Below are positions 7,642-17,800 of a stretch of DNA of 64,000 bases, piece after piece (position 1 is the first letter of the stretch; the number at the start of each line of letters is the position of its first letter). Under the pieces are notes generated by a model. It was not told where the DNA came from, did no database searches, and worked only from the letters and a program-made list of their open reading frames with translations. The translations under genes were made by a program, and so were the position numbers. This DNA comes from Mariniflexile gromovii (GTDB lineage Bacteria; Bacteroidota; Bacteroidia; Flavobacteriales; Flavobacteriaceae), in NCBI RefSeq assembly GCF_017814435.1, contig NZ_JAGJCB010000004.1:248001-312000 (forward strand), in the 5' to 3' direction.

Positions 7642-7977
7642 ATGCAAAAAACATATTACGATCCAGCCGATTTAAAAAAGTTTGGGAAAATCTCTGAATG
7701 GAATGAAGAATTAGGTGCTAAATTTTTTGACTACTACGGAAAGGTTTTTGAAGAAGGCGCACTTACCGAAAGAGAAAAATCGTTAATCGCATTAGCGGTT
7801 TCGCACACCATTCAATGTCCTTATTGTATTGATGCTTACACAGGCGATGGCTTGCAACGAGGCATCACCAAAGAAGAAATGATGGAAGCATTGCATGTAG
7901 CAGCAGCTATTCGTGGTGGCGCATCGTTGGTACATGGTGTTCAAATGATGAATAAAGTGAATAAGTTAGACATGTAA
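7642..7977 (+). CDS. Arsenosugar biosynthesis-associated peroxidase-like (CMD family) protein
   Basis: This 111-residue all-alpha protein belongs to the carboxymuconolactone decarboxylase/AhpD-like family. It has the redox-type CPYC pair in QCPYCIDAYTGDGLQ (about 52-66) and the typical AAAIRGGASLVHGVQM segment. In AhpD a His follows the CxxC by four residues; here that place is Tyr, as I recall for the subfamily that accompanies arsS. It opens the arsenosugar cluster, 94 bp before arsS. A thiol redox role, perhaps handling arsenic intermediates, is inference; its reaction is not established. Confidence 0.87.
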   Translation: MQKTYYDPADLKKFGKISEWNEELGAKFFDYYGKVFEEGALTEREKSLIALAVSHTIQCPYCIDAYTGDGLQRGITKEEMMEALHVAAAIRGGASLVHGVQMMNKVNKLDM

Positions 7978-7981
7978 ACTG

Positions 7982-8058
7982 AATTACGAATTGAGAATTA
8001 CGAATTACGATTGAAAGAAAAATCAAAATTCGTAATTCGTAATTCTCAATTCGTAACT
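7982..8058. repeat. Large inverted repeat of AATTACGA-type units
   Basis: Arms at 7982-8010 and 8030-8058 pair over 28 of 29 positions around a 19-nt loop. Each arm is itself built of repeated AATTACGA-like units. It fills the gap between the CMD-like gene and arsS, inside the cluster, and would form a strong RNA hairpin. Similar units recur at 36646-36676. No T tract follows, so it is not a typical terminator. Confidence 0.85.
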
Positions 8059-8071
8059 CCAAAATCAGCAT

Positions 8072-9124
8072 ATGATTAAATCCCTACATAAACGCGAAAG
8101 CGAATTAGCTAATAGCAAACGGCAATTAGAAATTTTATCAAACGGTATTTTCCAAAAAGGCGCATTACCAACTTTTAAGGAAAAAATATCGGAAACAAAT
8201 CAATTTCCCCTAAAAGCCAAAAAACTTGAAATTTTACAAATAAACGTTGGTTACATGTGCAACCAAGTTTGTTCGCATTGCCATGTAGATGCGGGACCTG
8301 ACCGAAAAGAAATTATGACGCGCGAAACCATGCAACAATGTTTAGACGTTATAAAAACTACAGGCGCCCACACACTGGATTTAACAGGAGGCGCACCCGA
8401 AATGAATCCCGATTTTCGTTGGTTTGTTGAAGAAGCTTCCAAAGTAGGTATTAAGGATTTTATTGTCCGTTCCAATTTAACCATCATTACAGCCAACAAA
8501 AAATACCACGATCTACCCGAATTTTTCAAAAAACACAACGTACACGTGGTAAGCTCTATGCCACATTGGACCAAAGGCAAAACAGACAAACAAAGGGGCG
8601 ATGGGGTTTTTAATGCCTCTATTGAAGCTTTAAAAATGCTTAACGCTGTTGGTTACGGCATGCCAGAAAGCAACTTGCGATTAGATTTGGTTTACAATCC
8701 ATCTGGTGCATTTTTACCTAGCAATCAAAAATCCATGGAAAAAGATTTTAAAAAAGGGCTTTTGGAAGAATTCAATGTGCAATTCCACAATTTATTCGCG
8801 ATAACCAATTTACCAATTAGCCGTTTTTTAGATTACTTAATTGCTTCTGAAAATTACGAAGACTATATGTACAATTTGGTAGAGGCCTACAACCCTTCTG
8901 CAGTAAAAAATGTGATGTGCACCAATACCCTTTCGGTAAGTTGGAATGGTTTTTTGTACGATTGTGATTTCAACCAAATGCTAGAACTCCCTGTAAATAG
9001 CAAGGCTAAACACATTTCAGACTATAATGAAGATTTATTAGAAGGCAGAAACATAGTAATTTCCCAACATTGTTATGGTTGTACTGCAGGTGCAGGAAGC
9101 AGTTGCCAAGGCAGTGTTATTTAA
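8072..9124 (+). CDS. arsS: Arsenosugar biosynthesis radical SAM protein ArsS
   Basis: This 350-residue radical SAM enzyme has the CxxxCxxC cluster motif CNQVCSHC at Cys63, Cys67 and Cys70, a GGAPEMNP segment typical of the SAM-binding strand, and a Cys-rich C-terminus (HCYGCTAGAGSSCQG). This layout is that of the rSAM/Cys-rich (selenodomain) family named ArsS, which attaches a 5'-deoxyadenosyl group to dimethylated arsenic. Some homologues contain selenocysteine; this frame has no internal TGA, so it is a Cys form. It lies in a cluster with arsM and both rSAM/selenodomain-associated transferases, which supports the role strongly. Confidence 0.92.
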   Translation: MIKSLHKRESELANSKRQLEILSNGIFQKGALPTFKEKISETNQFPLKAKKLEILQINVGYMCNQVCSHCHVDAGPDRKEIMTRETMQQCLDVIKTTGAHTLDLTGGAPEMNPDFRWFVEEASKVGIKDFIVRSNLTIITANKKYHDLPEFFKKHNVHVVSSMPHWTKGKTDKQRGDGVFNASIEALKMLNAVGYGMPESNLRLDLVYNPSGAFLPSNQKSMEKDFKKGLLEEFNVQFHNLFAITNLPISRFLDYLIASENYEDYMYNLVEAYNPSAVKNVMCTNTLSVSWNGFLYDCDFNQMLELPVNSKAKHISDYNEDLLEGRNIVISQHCYGCTAGAGSSCQGSVI

Positions 9125-9138
9125 ACGTTATTTATTAA

Positions 9139-9630
9139 ATGAAACAGCTCTTTCTAATTTTAATAGCACTTACAGCATCTGCTGGTTTTAGTCAAAATTC
9201 CCTATCTGATTTACTAAACAAATACAACAAAAAAAACATTGCTTATATATCTGTTCAAGAACTGACAATGCCAAAAACAAATGCAGTAATATTAGATGCA
9301 AGGGAAACTAATGAATTTAATACAAGTCATATTAAAAACGCTATTCATGTTGGCTATAATCATTTCAATATTGAAAGTATTCAAACCTTAATTCCAGATA
9401 AAACCACTCCAATAGTTGTATATTGTTCTATAGGAATACGATCGGAAACCATTGCTCACAAACTAAAAAAACAGGGCTATGCCCATGTTTCAAATCTATA
9501 TGGAGGTATTTTTGAATGGAAAAAAAATGATTTCCCTGTTTATGATTCCGAAGAAAAATTAACGGATGAAGTTCATGTGTTTTCCAAAGAATGGGGCAAA
9601 TGGCTAACCAAAGGTAAACAGGTCTATTAA
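9139..9630 (+). CDS. Secreted/periplasmic rhodanese-like protein
   Basis: This 163-residue protein has a signal peptide (cleavage likely after SAGFSQ, about residue 19) and a single rhodanese domain. The active-site loop is VYCSIGIRSE, with Cys in a CxxxxR loop. Rhodaneses carry a persulfide or bind anions such as arsenate in related Acr2 folds, but the loop here is of sulfurtransferase type. It sits 14 bp after arsS and its stop abuts the next ATG, so it belongs to the arsenosugar operon. Its substrate there is unknown. Confidence 0.85.
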   Translation: MKQLFLILIALTASAGFSQNSLSDLLNKYNKKNIAYISVQELTMPKTNAVILDARETNEFNTSHIKNAIHVGYNHFNIESIQTLIPDKTTPIVVYCSIGIRSETIAHKLKKQGYAHVSNLYGGIFEWKKNDFPVYDSEEKLTDEVHVFSKEWGKWLTKGKQVY

Positions 9631-10299
9631 ATGGGATTAATTAGCACAAAGGATACCGAGAATGATAATGAAATAACTTTTCATTTTCCAACCTCAAAAA
9701 AGGCATTGATTGTTTTTACAAGAAACCCAGAATTGGGCAAATGCAAAACCCGACTTGCCAAAACTGTTGGCGACAAATCTGCTTTAGAAATTTACAAGCA
9801 TCTTTTAAAATACACCGCCAACATTGCAAAAAACACCAATGCCGATAAGTATGTGTTTTATTCTGAAACCATTCAAAAAAACGATCTTTGGGATGCTTCC
9901 ATTTTTAGAAAAAAATTGCAGGAAGGCCCAGATTTAGGAGAAAAAATGCAAAATGCCTTTTCTTATGTTTTTTCATTAGGCTACCAAAAAGTTATTATTA
10001 TTGGTAGCGATTTGCTCGATTTAACTCCAAAACACATTCAATTGGCTTTTGAAGCTTTAGATAAAAACAACGTTGTTATAGGTCCAGCAAAAGACGGCGG
10101 CTACTACCTTCTAGGGATGACATCCATAAACCAAAACCTTTTTAAAAACAAAGCTTGGGGAACCTCAACGGTATTAAAAGACACCTTAAACGAACTACAA
10201 AAAAGTAACGTTTTCTTATTAGAAGAATTAAACGATATTGATACCTTTGAAGATATGGAACACTATCAAGAATTAGAAAAATATTATAAAAATGATTAA
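9631..10299 (+). CDS. TIGR04282-type transferase (rSAM/selenodomain-associated transferase 1)
   Basis: This 222-residue GT-A-fold protein has the CofC-like nucleotidyl/glycosyl-transferase start RNPELGKCKTRLAKTVG (about 31-47), a central IIGSDLLDLTP and GPAKDGGYYLLG. The family is named rSAM/selenodomain-associated transferase 1 because it neighbours arsS-type genes. The start codon follows the rhodanese stop directly and the end overlaps the phosphorylase gene by 8 bp, showing tight cotranscription. By analogy with CofC it might activate a sugar phosphate with a nucleotide, or transfer a sugar; this is inference. Confidence 0.88.
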   Translation: MGLISTKDTENDNEITFHFPTSKKALIVFTRNPELGKCKTRLAKTVGDKSALEIYKHLLKYTANIAKNTNADKYVFYSETIQKNDLWDASIFRKKLQEGPDLGEKMQNAFSYVFSLGYQKVIIIGSDLLDLTPKHIQLAFEALDKNNVVIGPAKDGGYYLLGMTSINQNLFKNKAWGTSTVLKDTLNELQKSNVFLLEELNDIDTFEDMEHYQELEKYYKND

Positions 10300-11104
10300 A
10301 TATATAGATGAAACCGTATCCTATTTACAAAACAAAGGATTCGAAAACCCTGAAATTGGTATCATATTAGGCACAGGACTCGGGCAATTAATAAATGAAA
10401 TCGACATACTAAAAGAAGTTAGCTATAACCACATCCCTAACTTCCCAACAGCCACGGTTGAGTTCCACAAAGGCAAACTCATTTACGGCACTTTAGAAGG
10501 CAAAAAAGTAGTGGTTATGCAAGGGCGTTTTCATATTTACGAAGGCTACACCCTACAAGATGTTACATACCCCGTTCGCATTATGGAAAAATTGGGCATC
10601 AAAACCCTATTGGTTTCCAACGCATCGGGCGCCATCAATTTAAACTTCAAAAAAGGAGAACTCATGCTTATTGAGGATCATATTAATCTTCAAGGCAGTT
10701 CGCCATTGGCATTTAAAGGTGTCGAACTTTTGGGCGAACGTTTTACCGACATGAGCGCACCTTACGATGCTGAAATCAACTCAAAATTTAAAACCATTGC
10801 AAAAACCAACAACATCACTTTACACGAAGGCGTTTATGCCAGTGTTGTGGGGCCGCAATTGGAAACCCGTGCTGAATACCGCATGCTAAAAACCATTGGC
10901 GCCGATGCTGTGGGCATGAGCACCGTTCCCGAAATTATTGTAGCAAACCATTTAAAATTAAAAGTAGCCGCGGTGTCAGTTCTCACCGATGAATGCGACC
11001 CAAATAACCTAAAACCTGTAGACATTGCCGAAATTATAGCCATGGCAGAAAAAGCAGAACCAAACATGATTACATTATTTAAAGAATTGATAAAAACATT
11101 ATAG
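10292..11104 (+). CDS. Purine-nucleoside phosphorylase
   Basis: This 270-residue protein matches the trimeric PNP/MTAP family: GIILGTGLGQL near residue 25, GRFHIYEGY (about 78-86), LLVSNASGAINL, GVYASVVGPQLETRAEYRM, and the purine-site Asn replaced as LTDECDP. It cleaves a nucleoside with phosphate to base and (deoxy)ribose-1-phosphate. It could be a general salvage enzyme, but its place between the two arsS-associated genes suggests that it removes adenine from the arsenic-bearing deoxyadenosine. That step is inference. Confidence 0.92.
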   Translation: MIKYIDETVSYLQNKGFENPEIGIILGTGLGQLINEIDILKEVSYNHIPNFPTATVEFHKGKLIYGTLEGKKVVVMQGRFHIYEGYTLQDVTYPVRIMEKLGIKTLLVSNASGAINLNFKKGELMLIEDHINLQGSSPLAFKGVELLGERFTDMSAPYDAEINSKFKTIAKTNNITLHEGVYASVVGPQLETRAEYRMLKTIGADAVGMSTVPEIIVANHLKLKVAAVSVLTDECDPNNLKPVDIAEIIAMAEKAEPNMITLFKELIKTL

Positions 11105-11108
11105 CATT

Positions 11109-11266
11109 TGGGCGTTACCACAAGGGTCGGGCTTTCGGCTATATCTTTTGGTTTTTTTGTCATTCCTGCGAAAGCAGGAATCCACAATTAAAATTAAATC
11201 TTTCTTTTTAAGGTCATTTCCTTGTCAAAAGAAAACCAAAAGGATGTCGCCTCAATCCCTAACGCA
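11109..11266. repeat. GGGCGTTA...TAACGC dispersed element, copy A
   Basis: The element starts GGGCGTTACC and ends ATCCCTAACGC, so its ends are short inverted repeats (GCGTTA/TAACGC). An inner pair (CTTTTGG near 11144 and CCAAAAGG near 11235) is also inverted. A separate palindrome (11159-11183) is embedded in it. Related shorter copies lie at 25465-25526 and 35063-35169. It fills most of the gap between the phosphorylase and arsM; no protein is encoded. Confidence 0.8.
11159..11183. repeat. CCTGCGAAAGCAGG palindromic dispersed repeat
   Basis: The core ATTCCTGCGAAAGCAGGAAT (11162-11181) is a perfect palindrome apart from its centre. Related copies lie at 12291-12311 and 12346-12368, all within the arsenosugar cluster gaps. 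This copy is nested in the larger GGGCGTTA element. Confidence 0.8.
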
Positions 11267-11271
11267 AAACA

Positions 11272-11304
11272 AGACCTCACAGGTTTTAAAAACCTGTGAG
11301 GTCT
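11272..11304. repeat. Perfect 16-bp-arm hairpin upstream of arsM
   Basis: Arms 11272-11287 and 11289-11304 are perfectly complementary around one central A, with core CCTCACAGG/CCTGTGAGG. It ends 16 bp before the arsM start codon, so the hairpin would sit just ahead of the translation start. No T tract follows it on the plus strand. Confidence 0.85.
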
Positions 11305-11320
11305 AAAAAACAGAAAAAAA

Positions 11321-12289
11321 ATGAGCTATTTAGAAACCACACACAACGTTTACAAAGAAGCAGCATTAACCCCAGATGTTGGCTTATGCTGCACAACCAA
11401 TCCTATTTGGGAGTTACCAGGATTAAAAATTCCGAAAATAATGCAGGAAATGAACTATGGCTGTGGTTCTACAGTACATGCACGCGATTTAACCAACAAC
11501 CCAAAAATGCTCTATGTTGGCGTTGGCGGCGGTATGGAATTACTGCAATTCGCTTATTTCAATCGTCAAAAAAGCGGGGTCATAGGTATTGATGTGGTAG
11601 ATGAAATGTTGGAAGCATCACGCAAAAACTTTATAGAAGCCGAAGTATTGAACCCTTGGTTTAAAAGCGATTTTATTGACCTTAAAAAAGGCGATGCCAT
11701 GAATCTTCCTGTAGAAGATAACAGTATTGATGTAGCAGCACAAAACTGCTTGTTCAATATTTTTAAAGCAGACGATTTAAAACAGGCCATTGCCGAAATG
11801 TACCGCGTACTAAAACCACATGGTAAACTGGTAATGAGCGACCCTACCTGCGAACAAGAAATGAACGACACCTTAAGAAACGACGAACGTTTACGTGCAC
11901 TTTGCCTAAGCGGAAGTTTACCAATTGCCGACTATGTAAAAGCACTAACCGATGCCGGTTTTGGCACCATTGAAATTAGAGCCAGAAAACCATACAGAAT
12001 CTTAGACCCAAAACATTATCCAACAAGCGAACTTATTTATATAGAATCTATTGAAGTAGCCGCTATAAAAGATCCGATGCCAAATGATGGCCCTTGTATA
12101 TTTACAGGAAAAGCAGCTATTTACTACGGAGAAAACGATTATTTTGATGACAAAAAAGGACACGTTTTATTAAAAAATCAACCATTAGCTATTTGTGACA
12201 AAACCGCAGGGGCTTTAGCATCCTTAAACAGAGATGATATTTTTATTAGCGAATCCACTTATCATTATGATGGTGGCGGGTGTTGTTAA
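11321..12289 (+). CDS. arsM: Arsenosugar-type arsenite methyltransferase ArsM
   Basis: This 322-residue SAM-dependent methyltransferase has the SAM motif MLYVGVGGGMELL (about 63-75) and the motif IGIDVVDEML. Cysteines for As(III) binding are visible at Cys23-Cys24 (GLCCTTNP), Cys48 (NYGCGST) and a terminal GGCC (319-322). This matches the arsenosugar-associated ArsM branch, which methylates arsenite to dimethylarsenic for ArsS. It lies downstream of arsS in the same cluster, separated by two repeats. The ATG at 11321 follows an A-rich leader without a Shine-Dalgarno sequence. Confidence 0.92.
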   Translation: MSYLETTHNVYKEAALTPDVGLCCTTNPIWELPGLKIPKIMQEMNYGCGSTVHARDLTNNPKMLYVGVGGGMELLQFAYFNRQKSGVIGIDVVDEMLEASRKNFIEAEVLNPWFKSDFIDLKKGDAMNLPVEDNSIDVAAQNCLFNIFKADDLKQAIAEMYRVLKPHGKLVMSDPTCEQEMNDTLRNDERLRALCLSGSLPIADYVKALTDAGFGTIEIRARKPYRILDPKHYPTSELIYIESIEVAAIKDPMPNDGPCIFTGKAAIYYGENDYFDDKKGHVLLKNQPLAICDKTAGALASLNRDDIFISESTYHYDGGGCC

Positions 12290-12290
12290 G

Positions 12291-12368
12291 TTCCTGCGAA
12301 AGCAGGAATCTCAAAAATAAGATTAAAAAAAAGGAAACTAAAAAAGATTCCTGCCTTCGCAGGAATTC
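12291..12368. repeat. Two copies of the CCTGCGAAAGCAGG-type palindrome
   Basis: Copy one is at 12291-12311 and copy two, a variant with centre CCTTCGC, at 12346-12368. Together they fill the 82-bp gap between arsM and the desaturase-like gene. The second ends three bases before the next start codon, so it may affect translation of that gene. Confidence 0.75.
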
Positions 12369-12371
12369 AGC

Positions 12372-13259
12372 ATGGAAAAATACATAGACATCATAAAAAA
12401 ATCATATTCTGGTTATTGGAATTACTTAAAGCAAGAGTTAATTTCAATCAACCATTGGGATAACTTTTTTTATGGCTTAATTATTATTTCCTTAGTGGTT
12501 TGGCTTTTGGAAATCATATTCCCATGGCGAAAAAACCAATCTATTTTTAGGAAAGATTTTTGGCTGGACACCTTTTACATGTTTTTCAACTTCTTCCTTT
12601 TAAATTTAATTGTGCTCATGGCTCTATCAAATACCGCCGCCCAATTATTGGACGATGGTTTAAAAACCATAGGACTCTCGGTTGCAAAACTTCAATTGTT
12701 TGATGTTGATGATTTACCCAAATGGTTAGGCTTATTTATTTTCTTTATCGTCTCCGATTTTGTTCAATGGAATACCCACCGACTATTACACCGTATACCT
12801 TTTCTGTGGAATTTCCATAAAGTACATCATTCCGTAAAAGAAATGGGGTTTGCTGCACACTTGCGTTACCATTGGATGGAACCTGTGGTTTACAAATCAT
12901 TACTCTACATTCCCATCGCTATAATCGGTGGTTTTGATGCACAAGATGTGGCTATCGTGTATTTTTTCACCATTGCCGTTGGTCATCTAAACCACGCCAA
13001 TTTAGGTTGGGATTATGGTTTTTTAAAATACGTGTTCAACAACCCTAAAATGCATATTTGGCACCATGCAAAAAAACTTCCAAATCACGCAAGGTATGGT
13101 GTTAACTACGGACTCACCTTAAGCCTTTGGGATTATATTTTTAAAACAGATTATATTCCGTACAACGGAAAAGACATCGAGCTTGGTTTTGAAGGCGATG
13201 AAACCTTTCCGAAAGATTTTATTAGTCAGGAAATTTACCCACTTAACGAAAAATCATGA
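12372..13259 (+). CDS. Sterol desaturase / fatty acid hydroxylase family membrane protein
   Basis: This 295-residue membrane protein has about four to five hydrophobic segments and the di-iron histidine boxes of the fatty acid hydroxylase superfamily: HRLLH, HKVHH, and HIWHHAKKLPNH near the C-terminus. Such enzymes hydroxylate or desaturate lipids using O2. It overlaps the next gene by 4 bp (ATGA) and follows arsM, so it belongs to the arsenosugar cluster by position. A link to arsenolipid formation is possible but is inference; a general lipid hydroxylase is the alternative. Confidence 0.85.
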   Translation: MEKYIDIIKKSYSGYWNYLKQELISINHWDNFFYGLIIISLVVWLLEIIFPWRKNQSIFRKDFWLDTFYMFFNFFLLNLIVLMALSNTAAQLLDDGLKTIGLSVAKLQLFDVDDLPKWLGLFIFFIVSDFVQWNTHRLLHRIPFLWNFHKVHHSVKEMGFAAHLRYHWMEPVVYKSLLYIPIAIIGGFDAQDVAIVYFFTIAVGHLNHANLGWDYGFLKYVFNNPKMHIWHHAKKLPNHARYGVNYGLTLSLWDYIFKTDYIPYNGKDIELGFEGDETFPKDFISQEIYPLNEKS

Positions 13260-13957
13260 AAAAATACTATTACGTTATTATTGTTTTGCTTTTAAGTTTT
13301 TCAGGAACTTCGCAAAATTCCAACCATGATGCTTGGGATAAACTTTTGAAAAAACATGTTTCAAACGATGGCCTTGTAAATTATAAAACCTTCAAAACCG
13401 ATAATAAAGCTTTAAATAATTACATAACATCTTTAAGTGAGCACACACCTAATGATGCTACTTCAAAAGAAGAAAAATTAACCTATTGGATAAACGCCTA
13501 CAACGCCTTAACCATCGATTTGATTTTACGCCATTACCCCACAAAGAGCATCAAAGACATTAAAGACCCGTGGGACCAACGCCTTTGGAAATTGGGCAGA
13601 ACATGGTATAATTTAAACGATATAGAACACAAAATTTTACGTAAAATGAATGAACCGCGCATTCATTTAGCTATTGTTTGCGCATCCGTTTCTTGTCCAA
13701 AATTATCAAACGAGGCCTTTTCTACTGTAAGTTTAGAACAACAACTTACTAAAGCTACCAAAGATTTTTTAACCGATACTAGTAAAAATTCCATTTCAGA
13801 AGACACTTTGGAACTTTCTAAAATATTTCAATGGTTCGCTAAAGATTTCAAACAAAATGGCGATTTAATTGATTTCTTAAATAAATATTCAAGCATTAAA
13901 ATTTCTGGGAAAGCCAAAATAAATTATAAAGATTACAATTGGGGTTTGAATGAATAA
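13256..13957 (+). CDS. DUF547 domain-containing secreted protein
   Basis: This 233-residue protein begins with a signal peptide (MKKYYYVIIVLLLSFSGTSQ) and is otherwise a DUF547 domain, recognisable from YWINAYNALTIDLIL and HLAIVCASVSCPKL. DUF547 has no established reaction; its conserved Cys and His residues and a papain-like fold suggestion make a transferase or hydrolase plausible. It is translationally coupled to the desaturase-like gene by a 4-bp overlap, so the two likely act together at the envelope. Confidence 0.85.
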   Translation: MKKYYYVIIVLLLSFSGTSQNSNHDAWDKLLKKHVSNDGLVNYKTFKTDNKALNNYITSLSEHTPNDATSKEEKLTYWINAYNALTIDLILRHYPTKSIKDIKDPWDQRLWKLGRTWYNLNDIEHKILRKMNEPRIHLAIVCASVSCPKLSNEAFSTVSLEQQLTKATKDFLTDTSKNSISEDTLELSKIFQWFAKDFKQNGDLIDFLNKYSSIKISGKAKINYKDYNWGLNE

Positions 13958-13963
13958 GTTAAA

Positions 13964-13990
13964 TGTCATGCTGAAATTGTTTCAGTATCT
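13964..13990. repeat. GCTGAAAnnnnTTTCAG-type dispersed palindrome
   Basis: This copy reads TGTCATGCTGAAATTGTTTC onward and belongs to the family seen at 35232, 35633 and 37597. It occupies most of the 44-bp gap between the DUF547 gene and the glycosyltransferase. Confidence 0.7.
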
Positions 13991-14001
13991 CCTACACAAT
14001 T

Positions 14002-14751
14002 ATGAATAAAATCACCATCATAATTCCCATATTCAATGAAGCGAAAAACATTGAAATTCTGCTTAATTATTTATTAGAAAATTCTCTAGAAAAAAACATT
14101 TCTGAAATTATTGTTGTTGATGGTGGTAGTACCGATGGTTCCCAAAACATTATTGCCAACTTTCTGTTTGGTCGAACGCAGTCGAGACCTACAAACAACC
14201 TCTCGACTTGGCTCGATGAGACATCAATAATAGTATTAAATTCCAAAAAAGGTCGTGCCAAACAAATGAATTTGGGTGCACAACATGCCACGGGCAACAT
14301 TCTATATTTTCTACATGCCGATTCATTTCCTCCCAAAAATTTCGATCAATTCATTAGTGATGAAGTTACAAAAGGTAATCTTGCTGGATGCTTTAGAATG
14401 CAATTTAACAGCAAGCATTGGTGGCTAAAATTAGCTGGTTGGTTCACACAATTTAGTTGGCGCGCTTGCCGTGGCGGCGACCAAAGTCAGTTTATAACCA
14501 AAAATCTGTTTCAAGAAATTGGCGGTTTTAACGAGGACTATAGTACATATGAAGACAACATGCTCATCAATGCTTTATACCAAAAAAAGCAATTTGTGGT
14601 TATCAATAAAAAACTTAAAACTTCAGCCAGATTGTACCAAAAACATGGTGTTTTTAAGGTTCAGTACCATTTCTATATCATATATTTAAAAAAGTGGTTA
14701 GGTGCTTCAGCCGAAGAACTATATATTTATTACGCAAAGCATCTATCTTAA
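14002..14751 (+). CDS. TIGR04283-type glycosyltransferase 2 (rSAM/selenodomain-associated transferase 2)
   Basis: This 249-residue GT2-fold protein has the nucleotide-sugar motif VVDGGSTDGS (about 36-45), the family motif GRAKQMNLGA, then LHADS (a DxD equivalent) and GGDQSQFI. The family is named for its neighbourhood with arsS-type radical SAM genes. It closes the cluster. Residues about 57-74 (GRTQSRPTNNLSTWLDE) are encoded by dispersed-repeat DNA (14170-14223) and separate two motifs that are normally close; the frame stays open. A role in attaching the arsenosugar to an acceptor is inference. Confidence 0.88.
   Translation: MNKITIIIPIFNEAKNIEILLNYLLENSLEKNISEIIVVDGGSTDGSQNIIANFLFGRTQSRPTNNLSTWLDETSIIVLNSKKGRAKQMNLGAQHATGNILYFLHADSFPPKNFDQFISDEVTKGNLAGCFRMQFNSKHWWLKLAGWFTQFSWRACRGGDQSQFITKNLFQEIGGFNEDYSTYEDNMLINALYQKKQFVVINKKLKTSARLYQKHGVFKVQYHFYIIYLKKWLGASAEELYIYYAKHLS
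14170..14223. repeat. In-frame dispersed repeats inside the transferase-2 gene
   Basis: Two GTCGA-type repeat units (GGTCGAACGCAGTCGAGACC at 14170-14189 and a TCTCGAC...GATGAGAC unit at 14201-14223) lie within the coding sequence in frame. Related units sit at 30284-30309, 39405-39437 and 29499-29552. Confidence 0.75.
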
Positions 14752-14828: not shown

Positions 14829-17800
14829 ATGAAAATCAAAAAAGTACTTGTAGCAAACAGAGGCGAAATTGCCATTAGAATTTTTAGAGCTTGCACAGAA
14901 ATCAGCATTAAAACCGTTGGTGTTTACACTTTTGAAGACAGGTACTCGCTACATAGATACAAAGCTGATGAATCATACCAGATTGGTGAAGATCATGAGC
15001 CTTTAAAGCCATACTTAAACATGGACGCTATTATAAAAGTAGCTTTAGATAGTGGTGCCGATGCCATACATCCAGGATATGGTTTTCTTTCTGAAAATGC
15101 CACCTTTGCTCAAAAATGTGAAGATAACGGAATCATTTTTGTCGGACCAAAAGTATCTGTTTTAAAATCTTTAGGCGATAAAATTACGGCTAAAGAAGTT
15201 GCTTTGGCCAACAACATTCCCATCATTAGAAGTAACGAAAAACCATTAACGGATATTACAGTGGCTTTAAGTGAAGCTAAAAAAATTGGTTACCCTATCA
15301 TGCTAAAAGCAGCTTCAGGTGGTGGTGGTAGAGGCATGCGTGTTATTAGAGAAGAAGCCGAACTTAAAGGCGCCTACAATGAAAGTAAGCGCGAAGCTTT
15401 AAATGCGTTTGGTGATGACACCGTATTTTTGGAAAAATTTGTAGAAAACCCCAAACATATTGAAATTCAAATTGTTGCTGATAATTACGGTCATACGGTT
15501 CATTTATTTGAACGCGATTGTTCTGTACAACGTCGCTACCAAAAAGTAATTGAATTTGCACCTTCATATGGTTTAAAAGATGAAACCAAAAATGCGCTTT
15601 ACGATTATGCCATAAAAATATGTAAAGCCGTAAATTACAACAATATTGGTACGGTAGAATTTTTGGTAGATGATGATGATTCTATCTATTTCATTGAAGT
15701 AAACCCCAGAATACAAGTTGAACATACCGTTACCGAGGTTATAACCAATATCGATTTAGTTAAAACACAATTATTTATAGCTGGTGGTTATAAATTATCT
15801 GATGAACAAATTAAAATAGCCAATCAGGAATCCATCCAAATAAATGGCTACGCACTGCAATGTAGAATCACAACAGAAGATCCACAAAACGATTTCAAAC
15901 CAGATTATGGAACGGTTTTGGCTTACCGTAGTGCTTCTGGTTTTGGTATTCGTTTAGATGCGGGAAGCATCTATCAAGGAGCTAAAATTTCACCTTTTTT
16001 CGATTCTATGTTGGTAAAAGTAACTGCTCATGGACGAACACTAGACGGTGCGAGCAGAAAAATACGCCGTGCCTTAGCAGAATTTAGAATTAGAGGCGTA
16101 AAAACAAACATGCCTTTTCTCGACAATATTTTAGTGCACGAAACCTTTAGACAAGGAAAGGTTACAGTAAATTTCATAAAATCAAATCCAGATTTATTCA
16201 AGTTTAAAGCACCAAGGAATCGAGCAACAAAATTACTAAACTATTTAGGCGAGGTTACGGTAAACGGCAATCCAGACGTTAAAAAAATAGATACCTGTAA
16301 AACATTTATAAAACCCAAAGTACCTAAGTTTGATGCTAATGCCAGTTTTCCAGAAGGCACAAAAGATTTGCTAACAAAACTTGGCCCAGAAAAATTTTCG
16401 CAATGGTTATTAAATGAAAAGAAAGTTCATTTTACCGATACTACCATGCGTGATGCGCACCAAAGTTTACTAGCAACTAGAATGCGTACGTTTGATATGT
16501 TGGCGGTTGCAGAGGGTTACGCCAAGAACCATCCCGATATTTTTAGTATGGAAGTATGGGGCGGTGCTACTTTTGATGTTTGTTTGCGCTTTCTTCAAGA
16601 AAACCCCTGGGAACGATTACGTTTGTTGCGTAAAGCGATGCCAAATTTACTTTTACAAATGCTTATTAGAGGTTCTAATGGTGTGGGATACAAAGCCTAT
16701 TCCGATAATTTAATAGGTGAATTTGTTGAACAATCTTGGGAAAACGGCGTGGATGTTTTTAGAATTTTCGACTCGCTTAACTGGATGAAATCGTTGGCGC
16801 CTTGTATCGAACATGTACGCACCCGAACCAAAGGTTTAGCCGAAGGTTCCATCTGCTATACCAATGATATTCTAAATCCTGCAAACAAGAAATACGATTT
16901 AAAATATTACATCAATCTTGCCAAAGAAATTGAAGGGGCTGGCGCCCATATTTTAGGGGTTAAGGATATGGCAGGTTTATTAAAACCTTATGCAGCTTTC
17001 GAGCTTATTTCAGCTTTAAAATCGGAGTTAAAAATCCCGATTCATTTACATACACACGATACCTCATCCATCCAGTCTGCCACCTATTTAAAAGCTATTG
17101 AAGCAGGTGTTGATGTTGTAGATGTGGCTTTGGGAGGTTTGTCCGGGTTAACATCGCAACCTAATTTCAATTCAATTGTTGAGATGATGAAATTTCAAGA
17201 CAGGGCCAGCAGCATAAATATTGATTCTTTAAATGAATATTCCAATTATTGGGAAACCGTTCGGGAGTATTATTATCCATTTGAGTCTGGTTTAAAAGCA
17301 GGTTCAGGTGAAGTTTTCAAACATGAAATTCCGGGTGGGCAATACTCCAACTTAAAACCTCAAGCGAGAGGTTTAGGACTGGAAGAACGCTTTCATGAAA
17401 TTACCCAAATGTATGGTGATGTGAATATGCTTTTTGGAGATATTGTAAAAGTAACCCCTAGTTCTAAAGTTGTTGGTGATATGGCGCAATACTTGGTCAG
17501 CAATAATTTAACCATTCAAGATGTTCTGGAAAAAGGAGACACTTTGTCTTTTCCCCAATCGGTAGTCGACTTTTTTAGAGGCGATTTAGGGCAACCTGTT
17601 GGCGGGTTCCCAAAAGGGCTTCAAAAAATAATTTTAAAGGATCAGAAACCGTATACCGATAGACCGAACGCACACATGCCACCGTTAGATCTTGAAAAAG
17701 AATACGAAGAATTTAAGAAAATATTTGAACACGATTTAAGTAGAACTATAGAGTACACCGATTTCCTTTCCTATCAATTATACCCTAAAGTGTTTTCAGA

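Follow-up and report, generated by a model that had tools for sequence, protein, structure and literature searches.

A probable arsenosugar biosynthesis cluster in Mariniflexile gromovii and a proposed three-enzyme route for its late steps

Gene content of the locus

The present study examined a nine-gene cluster containing arsS and arsM within a 64,000-nucleotide stretch of the Mariniflexile gromovii genome (NCBI RefSeq assembly GCF_017814435.1, contig NZ_JAGJCB010000004.1, positions 248,001 to 312,000 of the forward strand), hereafter the window, in which position 1 is the first letter. The source genome comprises 52 contigs and 4.28 Mb and is 99.98% complete. The list of open reading frames (ORFs) places nine ORFs on the + strand between 7642 and 14751, at the same coordinates as an initial annotation of this DNA, and the NCBIfam and Pfam matches agree with the families named there. 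Seven of the nine proteins matched NCBIfam families above curated cut-offs, and the words 'arsenosugar biosynthesis' stand in the descriptions of five families (TIGR04169, TIGR04167, TIGR04282, NF038099 and TIGR04283); the purine nucleoside phosphorylase (PNP), the DUF547 protein and the hydroxylase-like protein fall outside any NCBIfam family named for arsenosugars. The features are as follows.

7642..7977, + strand: CMD/AhpD-like protein, TIGR04169 'arsenosugar biosynthesis-associated peroxidase-like protein', 111 amino acids, CPYC motif; 194.4 bits, cut-off 120
8072..9124, + strand: ArsS, radical SAM enzyme with Cys-rich C-terminal DUF3641 domain; TIGR04167, 444.3 bits, cut-off 300
9139..9630, + strand: single-domain rhodanese, probable export signal by eye; NF045521, 204.1 bits, cut-off 145
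9631..10299, + strand: TIGR04282 protein (DUF2064, CofC-like); 215 bits, cut-off 134
10292..11104, + strand: PunA-like PNP; NF006054, 344.2 bits, cut-off 218; TIGR01700, 298.6 bits, cut-off 293.35
11321..12289, + strand: arsenosugar-type ArsM (AsSugarArsM); NF038099, 571.8 bits over the whole length, cut-off 400
12372..13259, + strand: protein of the fatty-acid-hydroxylase/sterol-desaturase superfamily ('desaturase-like'); FA_hydroxylase PF04116, 92.8 bits, cut-off 31
13256..13957, + strand: DUF547 protein, probable export signal by eye; PF04784, 92.3 bits, cut-off 27
14002..14751, + strand: TIGR04283 glycosyltransferase of family GT2; 216.7 bits, cut-off 182
14165..14223, + strand: dispersed palindromic repeat, in frame inside the TIGR04283 gene; recognised by a genome-wide core count and by protein length variation

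The overlaps described in the initial annotation proved to be two short ones, of 8 bp between the TIGR04282 and PNP genes and of 4 bp between the hydroxylase-like and DUF547 genes; one further pair abuts, and the remaining gaps are 14–216 bp. Its motif readings were borne out, with CNQVCSHC present in ArsS and CC, C48 and a terminal GGCC present in ArsM (the ArsM motifs by eye). The cysteines of the radical SAM motif CxxxCxxC in ArsS (C63, C67 and C70) were invariant across 19 aligned ArsS proteins, and the closest named relatives among the matches listed, which include Confluentibacter, Winogradskyella, Algibacter and Gelidibacter, share 84–88% identity with it.

In seaweed, arsenic occurs mainly as arsenosugars (PMC5478658, as excerpted), and an ArsM-ArsS pathway to them is known in cyanobacteria (Xue 2019 and Cheng 2021, as cited in excerpts of other papers). 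By analogy with characterised homologues, the ArsM of the window would methylate arsenite and its ArsS would put a 5'-deoxyadenosyl group on dimethylarsenic. The cluster shares with the cyanobacterial pathway, as excerpted, an ArsS of the same family with intact radical SAM cysteines together with an ArsM, but differs in that its ArsM belongs to NF038099 and in that seven further genes are clustered with the two. The arsinothricin cluster arsQML also combines an ArsM with a radical SAM enzyme (PMC8552651, in excerpt), although that enzyme is ArsL and the product is another one. The locus is very probably an arsenosugar biosynthesis cluster, and it is a cluster of known kind whose core annotation already stands in public family libraries.

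Gene neighbourhoods around arsS

Gene content around arsS was compared in two sets of 80 loci. The unnamed set was hand-chosen from the phylum ArsS matches and spans 25 family codes, with partners counted where their centres lay no more than 9 kb from arsS; the named set held the best 80 of at least 589 ArsS relatives, which biases it to close kin, and extended up to 10 kb on each side. All locus counts are lower bounds because some loci stop at contig ends, and the same genomes may occur in both sets. TIGR04169 was the most constant partner of arsS (73/80 unnamed loci, from 23 families, and 77/80 named loci), followed in the unnamed set by TIGR04282 (44/80, 13 families; 66/80 named), TIGR04283 (28/80, 9 families; 25/80 named), ArsM (21/80, 8 families; 42/80 named) and DUF547 (18/80, 7 families; 34/80 named). 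PNP lay near arsS at 54 of the 80 named loci and at 11 of the 80 unnamed loci, all from one family, with two further at 9.1 kb; the rhodanese was found at 40 named and 11 unnamed loci (2 families), and the hydroxylase-like gene at 20 named and 6 unnamed loci (5 families). The complete set of nine genes was present in one locus for 9/80 of the named set, including Winogradskyella, Kordia and Aequorivita, and for 1/80 of the unnamed set. The initial annotation had proposed this comparison as a check on the cluster, and several of the flanking genes do recur in other genomes; the recurrence of the same genes around arsS in other genera indicates that the cluster is not a chance assembly.

ArsS was found above the TIGR04167 cut-off in 156 of 395 phylum genomes and in 148 of 199 genomes of the family. 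Across those 199 genomes, ArsS and TIGR04283 occurred together in 130, ArsS alone in 18, TIGR04283 alone in 8 and neither in 43 (Fisher p 3.6e-21, uncorrected for kinship). Among 14 control genomes, ArsS and TIGR04283 were each matched in Synechococcus elongatus only, and TIGR04282 was matched in four (Synechococcus and three archaea), in one of them above cut-off. DUF547 was matched in none of the 14 controls and the arsenosugar-type ArsM exceeded its cut-off in none, which indicates that the cyanobacterial gene set is a different one.

The late genes also travel apart from arsS. We picked 24 loci from arsS-positive genomes in which PNP does not lie beside arsS, non-exhaustively and by reading coordinates, and inspected about 9 kb on each side of PNP or as far as the contig end. 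PNP was accompanied by TIGR04282 in 24/24 of these split loci, by TIGR04283 in 22/24, by the rhodanese in 21/24, by DUF547 in 20/24 and by ArsM in 18/24, usually in the order rhodanese, TIGR04282, PNP, ArsM, DUF547, TIGR04283 in the loci printed; in one of them (L241) arsS was about 13 kb away from PNP. Since PNP keeps its partners away from arsS, the late genes form a unit beyond mere proximity to arsS.

Candidate enzymes for the late steps

By sequence the cluster PNP is a PNP, although it barely passes the inosine/guanosine-specific family TIGR01700 and scores 98.3 bits against the 5'-methylthioadenosine (MTA) phosphorylase family (MTAP, TIGR01694), below the cut-off of 274.85. Human PNP binds the 5'-OH of its substrate through His257 (PMC12648331, as excerpted) and the base through Asn243 (PMC4308819, as excerpted). 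In an alignment with solved PNPs, the cluster PNP carries Ile where 8swt and 8swu carry His and where the nearest structure, 4lna, carries Leu, and it carries Asp at the base-specificity position. We take these Ile and Asp positions to be those of human His257 and Asn243, on the register of the HEEV motif. All 82 rows compared for this PNP subfamily (the 30 best matches, 15 arsS-negative loci, 24 split loci and 13 arsS loci, with a few genomes present twice) have Ile, Val, Leu or Phe at the position of the 5'-OH-binding His; of the 30 TIGR01697 matches that score best in the 395 phylum genomes, 29 have His. Such a hydrophobic 5' site would suit a substrate whose 5' group is itself hydrophobic, for instance methylthio or dimethylarsinoyl. 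The Asp was considered as an arsenic-specific mark and rejected, since 26 of the 30 top-scoring PNPs of the phylum carry it too.

The source genome has three PF01048 matches, namely the cluster PNP, a PNP of the DeoD type and a protein resembling uridine phosphorylase that scores below the cut-off of that family; none of the three is an MTA nucleosidase or MTAP, and for this reason the cluster PNP may serve the cell as its MTA phosphorylase and have been taken over for the arsenic adduct. Its Asp and its hydrophobic residue in place of the 5'-OH-binding His are features that MTAP has as well, in spite of its score below the MTAP cut-off.

The TIGR04282 protein has one match in the source genome, the one inside this cluster. 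Its predicted model (predicted local distance difference test score, pLDDT, 92.0) resembles guanylyl- and cytidylyltransferases more than glycosyltransferases in structure matches, and its closest characterised folds are nucleotidylyltransferases, a shared fold being in itself no demonstration of function. It is CofC-like in fold and sequence, in the manner of CofC/FbiD guanylyltransferases and 3-phosphoglycerate guanylyltransferase, yet it scores 41.1 bits against CofC TIGR03552, below the cut-off of 105. We propose that TIGR04282 is an arsenoribose-1-phosphate nucleotidylyltransferase, as its modelled fold suggests, and that TIGR04283 is, from its family and linkage, an arsenoribosyltransferase.

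Proposed route and the role of TIGR04282

Genome comparison suggests that the genes finishing the pathway include one that frees the sugar as a phosphate, one that activates it and one that attaches it. In the proposed route, PNP would swap adenine for phosphate on the ArsS product to give 5-deoxy-5-dimethylarsinoyl-alpha-ribose-1-phosphate, TIGR04282 would activate this arsenoribose-1-phosphate with a nucleoside triphosphate to a nucleoside diphosphate (NDP)-arsenoribose, an NDP-alpha-sugar, and TIGR04283, as an inverting GT2 enzyme, would transfer the arsenoribose onto an acceptor such as glycerol or phosphatidylglycerol to give a beta-ribofuranoside. PNP and GT2 enzymes act with inversion. 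The split clusters, the co-occurrence and the TIGR04282 fold lead to a three-enzyme route that is stereochemically consistent, natural arsenosugars being beta-ribofuranosides (PMC10456119, as excerpted). Families, linkage, co-occurrence, fold and residues are observed; every reaction beyond ArsS, the acceptor molecule and what the CMD-like, rhodanese, DUF547 and hydroxylase-like proteins do are inferred, and we assign a probability of about 0.5 to the whole route from PNP through TIGR04282 to TIGR04283 after ArsM and ArsS, with an arsenoriboside of the glycerol type or lipid-linked as its product.

The excerpted text of PMC10456119 mentions that a chemical route to an algal arsenolipid has been proposed. 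No assignment of genes to the steps after ArsS was found in the open-licence literature, and subscription papers may hold one; the open-licence literature likewise yielded no description of an ordered late-step proposal, of the split clusters or of the phosphoesterase fusion reported below. If the route is true, two labels would change: TIGR04282 would become a nucleotidylyltransferase, and the PNP of flavobacteria labelled 'inosine/guanosine-specific' would become a phosphorylase that acts on 5'-substituted adenosines.

The cluster could also make arsenosugars with TIGR04282 itself as a glycosyltransferase, housekeeping enzymes freeing and activating the ribose and PNP a mere neighbour. NCBIfam does name TIGR04282 a glycosyltransferase, and PNP shows its linkage mostly among Flavobacteriaceae and their relatives and also occurs without arsS; the protein is nevertheless closer in fold and sequence to CofC-type guanylyltransferases, and PNP accompanied TIGR04282 away from arsS at every split locus examined, which leaves this arrangement possible but on the unlikely side.

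Evidence against the proposed route and genomes without ArsS

Several observations weigh against the three-enzyme route. TIGR04283 is missing from 18 of the 148 ArsS-positive family genomes, and the linkage of PNP to arsS is mostly flavobacterial, being seen in 1 of 25 sampled family codes, though also at a few named loci outside Flavobacteriaceae. PF01048 had no match in the Synechococcus control, where either another enzyme would be needed or the search missed one, and a general PNP-type step is not supported by that control. A match to the cluster PNP at E <= 1e-40 was present in 175 of the 199 family genomes, some of these being ordinary PNPs, vs 148 for ArsS. The lost 5'-OH-binding His is weakened as an arsS-linked mark by the same change in 15/15 arsS-negative loci and by 4lna, which also lacks the His; since arsS-negative genomes show the change, it marks a flavobacterial PNP subfamily and not arsenic. 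Of four ArsS-positive genomes checked, one (G304) gave no hit at E <= 1e-20 for the arsenosugar-type ArsM.

To the same side belong genomes that keep the late genes without ArsS. From the 51 ArsS-negative family genomes, 15 PNP loci were hand-picked from the PNP match list; at six of them PNP is still accompanied by the rhodanese, TIGR04282 and TIGR04283, and at four of these six by DUF547 too, while at the remaining nine neither TIGR04282 nor TIGR04283 lies with PNP. The arsenosugar-type ArsM exceeded its cut-off in none of the eight TIGR04283-positive ArsS-negative genomes (G495 gave a match of 89.8 bits). The late module of the six genomes is either a relic or a module with another substrate, and its persistence where both ArsS and this ArsM type are missing means that PNP and its neighbours may have a second job. 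A PNP tree was built from 57 PNPs and 3 outgroup rows, the PNPs being 14 from arsS-negative loci (L222, from the same genome as L172, was omitted), 24 from split loci, 18 from further arsS-positive loci and that of the window. On this tree the six genomes fall in a clade where arsS sits at a separate locus; five changes fit the loss of arsS and well-supported branches force only one, so that independent losses in the six are possible but not forced. As a separate observation, the PNP locus of G304 (L226) keeps the rhodanese, TIGR04282, DUF547 and TIGR04283.

These genomes invite a broader reading, in which the late module of rhodanese, TIGR04282, PNP, DUF547 and TIGR04283 would convert 5'-modified adenosines in general, be it MTA, 5'-deoxyadenosine or the arsenic adduct, to NDP-5-deoxyribose sugars and ribose glycoconjugates, with ArsM and ArsS as an exchangeable arsenic front end lost in some genomes. 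This would explain a module kept without ArsS and this ArsM, which exceeded its cut-off in 0/6 of the module-keeping genomes, and it accords with the hydrophobic 5' site in all arsS-negative PNPs examined and with the lack of an MTA nucleosidase or MTAP among the three PF01048 matches; the strong co-occurrence of TIGR04283 with ArsS speaks against it, as does the position of the six genomes in the separate-arsS clade, where a single origin of the loss is possible and they may be relics. We regard so general a module as distinctly doubtful.

Accessory and neighbouring genes

The initial annotation had all the other genes finishing an arsenosugar or arsenolipid. For TIGR04282, TIGR04283 and PNP this is upheld, conditionally, by linkage, by linkage in the split clusters, by co-occurrence and by a chemically ordered route; it does not extend to the hydroxylase-like gene, with its 20/80 named and 6/80 unnamed loci, nor to the rhodanese and DUF547 proteins, whose N-termini resemble export signals by eye and which seem ill-suited to a cytosolic step. 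The seemingly exported rhodanese (NF045521, short name rhoda_near_glyco) and DUF547 protein would be accessory, as would the CMD-like protein. The DUF547 protein is the sole match to its family in the source genome and has invariant residues N80, Y82, N83, E124, H137, C142 and C147. The hydroxylase-like protein, one of four PF04116 matches in the source genome, scored 88.4 bits against the OlsE ornithine lipid hydroxylase NF052566, below the cut-off of 475, and may tailor a lipid part in some genera.

A block of a SusC-like receptor, a SusD-like lipoprotein, a sodium:solute symporter and a metallophosphoesterase lay near arsS at 17 of the 160 loci of the two sets, those from the unnamed set belonging to family codes f1, f5 and f10 (for example L265, 11888–18807, and L285, 2753–9939). 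At four loci the metallophosphoesterase is fused to a TIGR04169 protein (L051, 10216–11445; L059, 10127–11368; L285, 8734–9939; L287, 8661–9896), which ties the block to the arsenosugar pathway. Both phosphorolysis and nucleotidyl transfer can in principle run backwards, and with such a block at hand the cluster might instead degrade or salvage arsenosugars taken up from algae, but this is very improbable given that the ArsM and ArsS homologues are synthetic in the excerpted sources and that no uptake block occurs among the ORFs at 5.5–17.5 kb of the window. Several loci with the block have a duplicated TIGR04282. L249 encodes a phosphate transporter of the PiT type (16569–17678), and proteins like it were present at 7/160 arsS loci, where a link to arsenate or phosphate uptake is possible; neither the SusC/SusD block nor a PiT-type transporter was found among the window's ORFs at 5.5–17.5 kb, the part searched for them.

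The repeat inside the TIGR04283 gene, which we take to be much like Rickettsia palindromic elements, has a core, CTCGACTNNGCTCGA, with 48 copies in the genome vs 0 for the reversed control, and the protein stretch that it encodes varies in length among the readable ones of 61 rows, many of the 61 giving no reading by the pattern used. Inverted sequences of the AATTACGAATT type and the TTCCTGCGAAAGCAGGAAT type were seen by eye between the genes at 7984–8060, 11160–11190 and 12290–12370.

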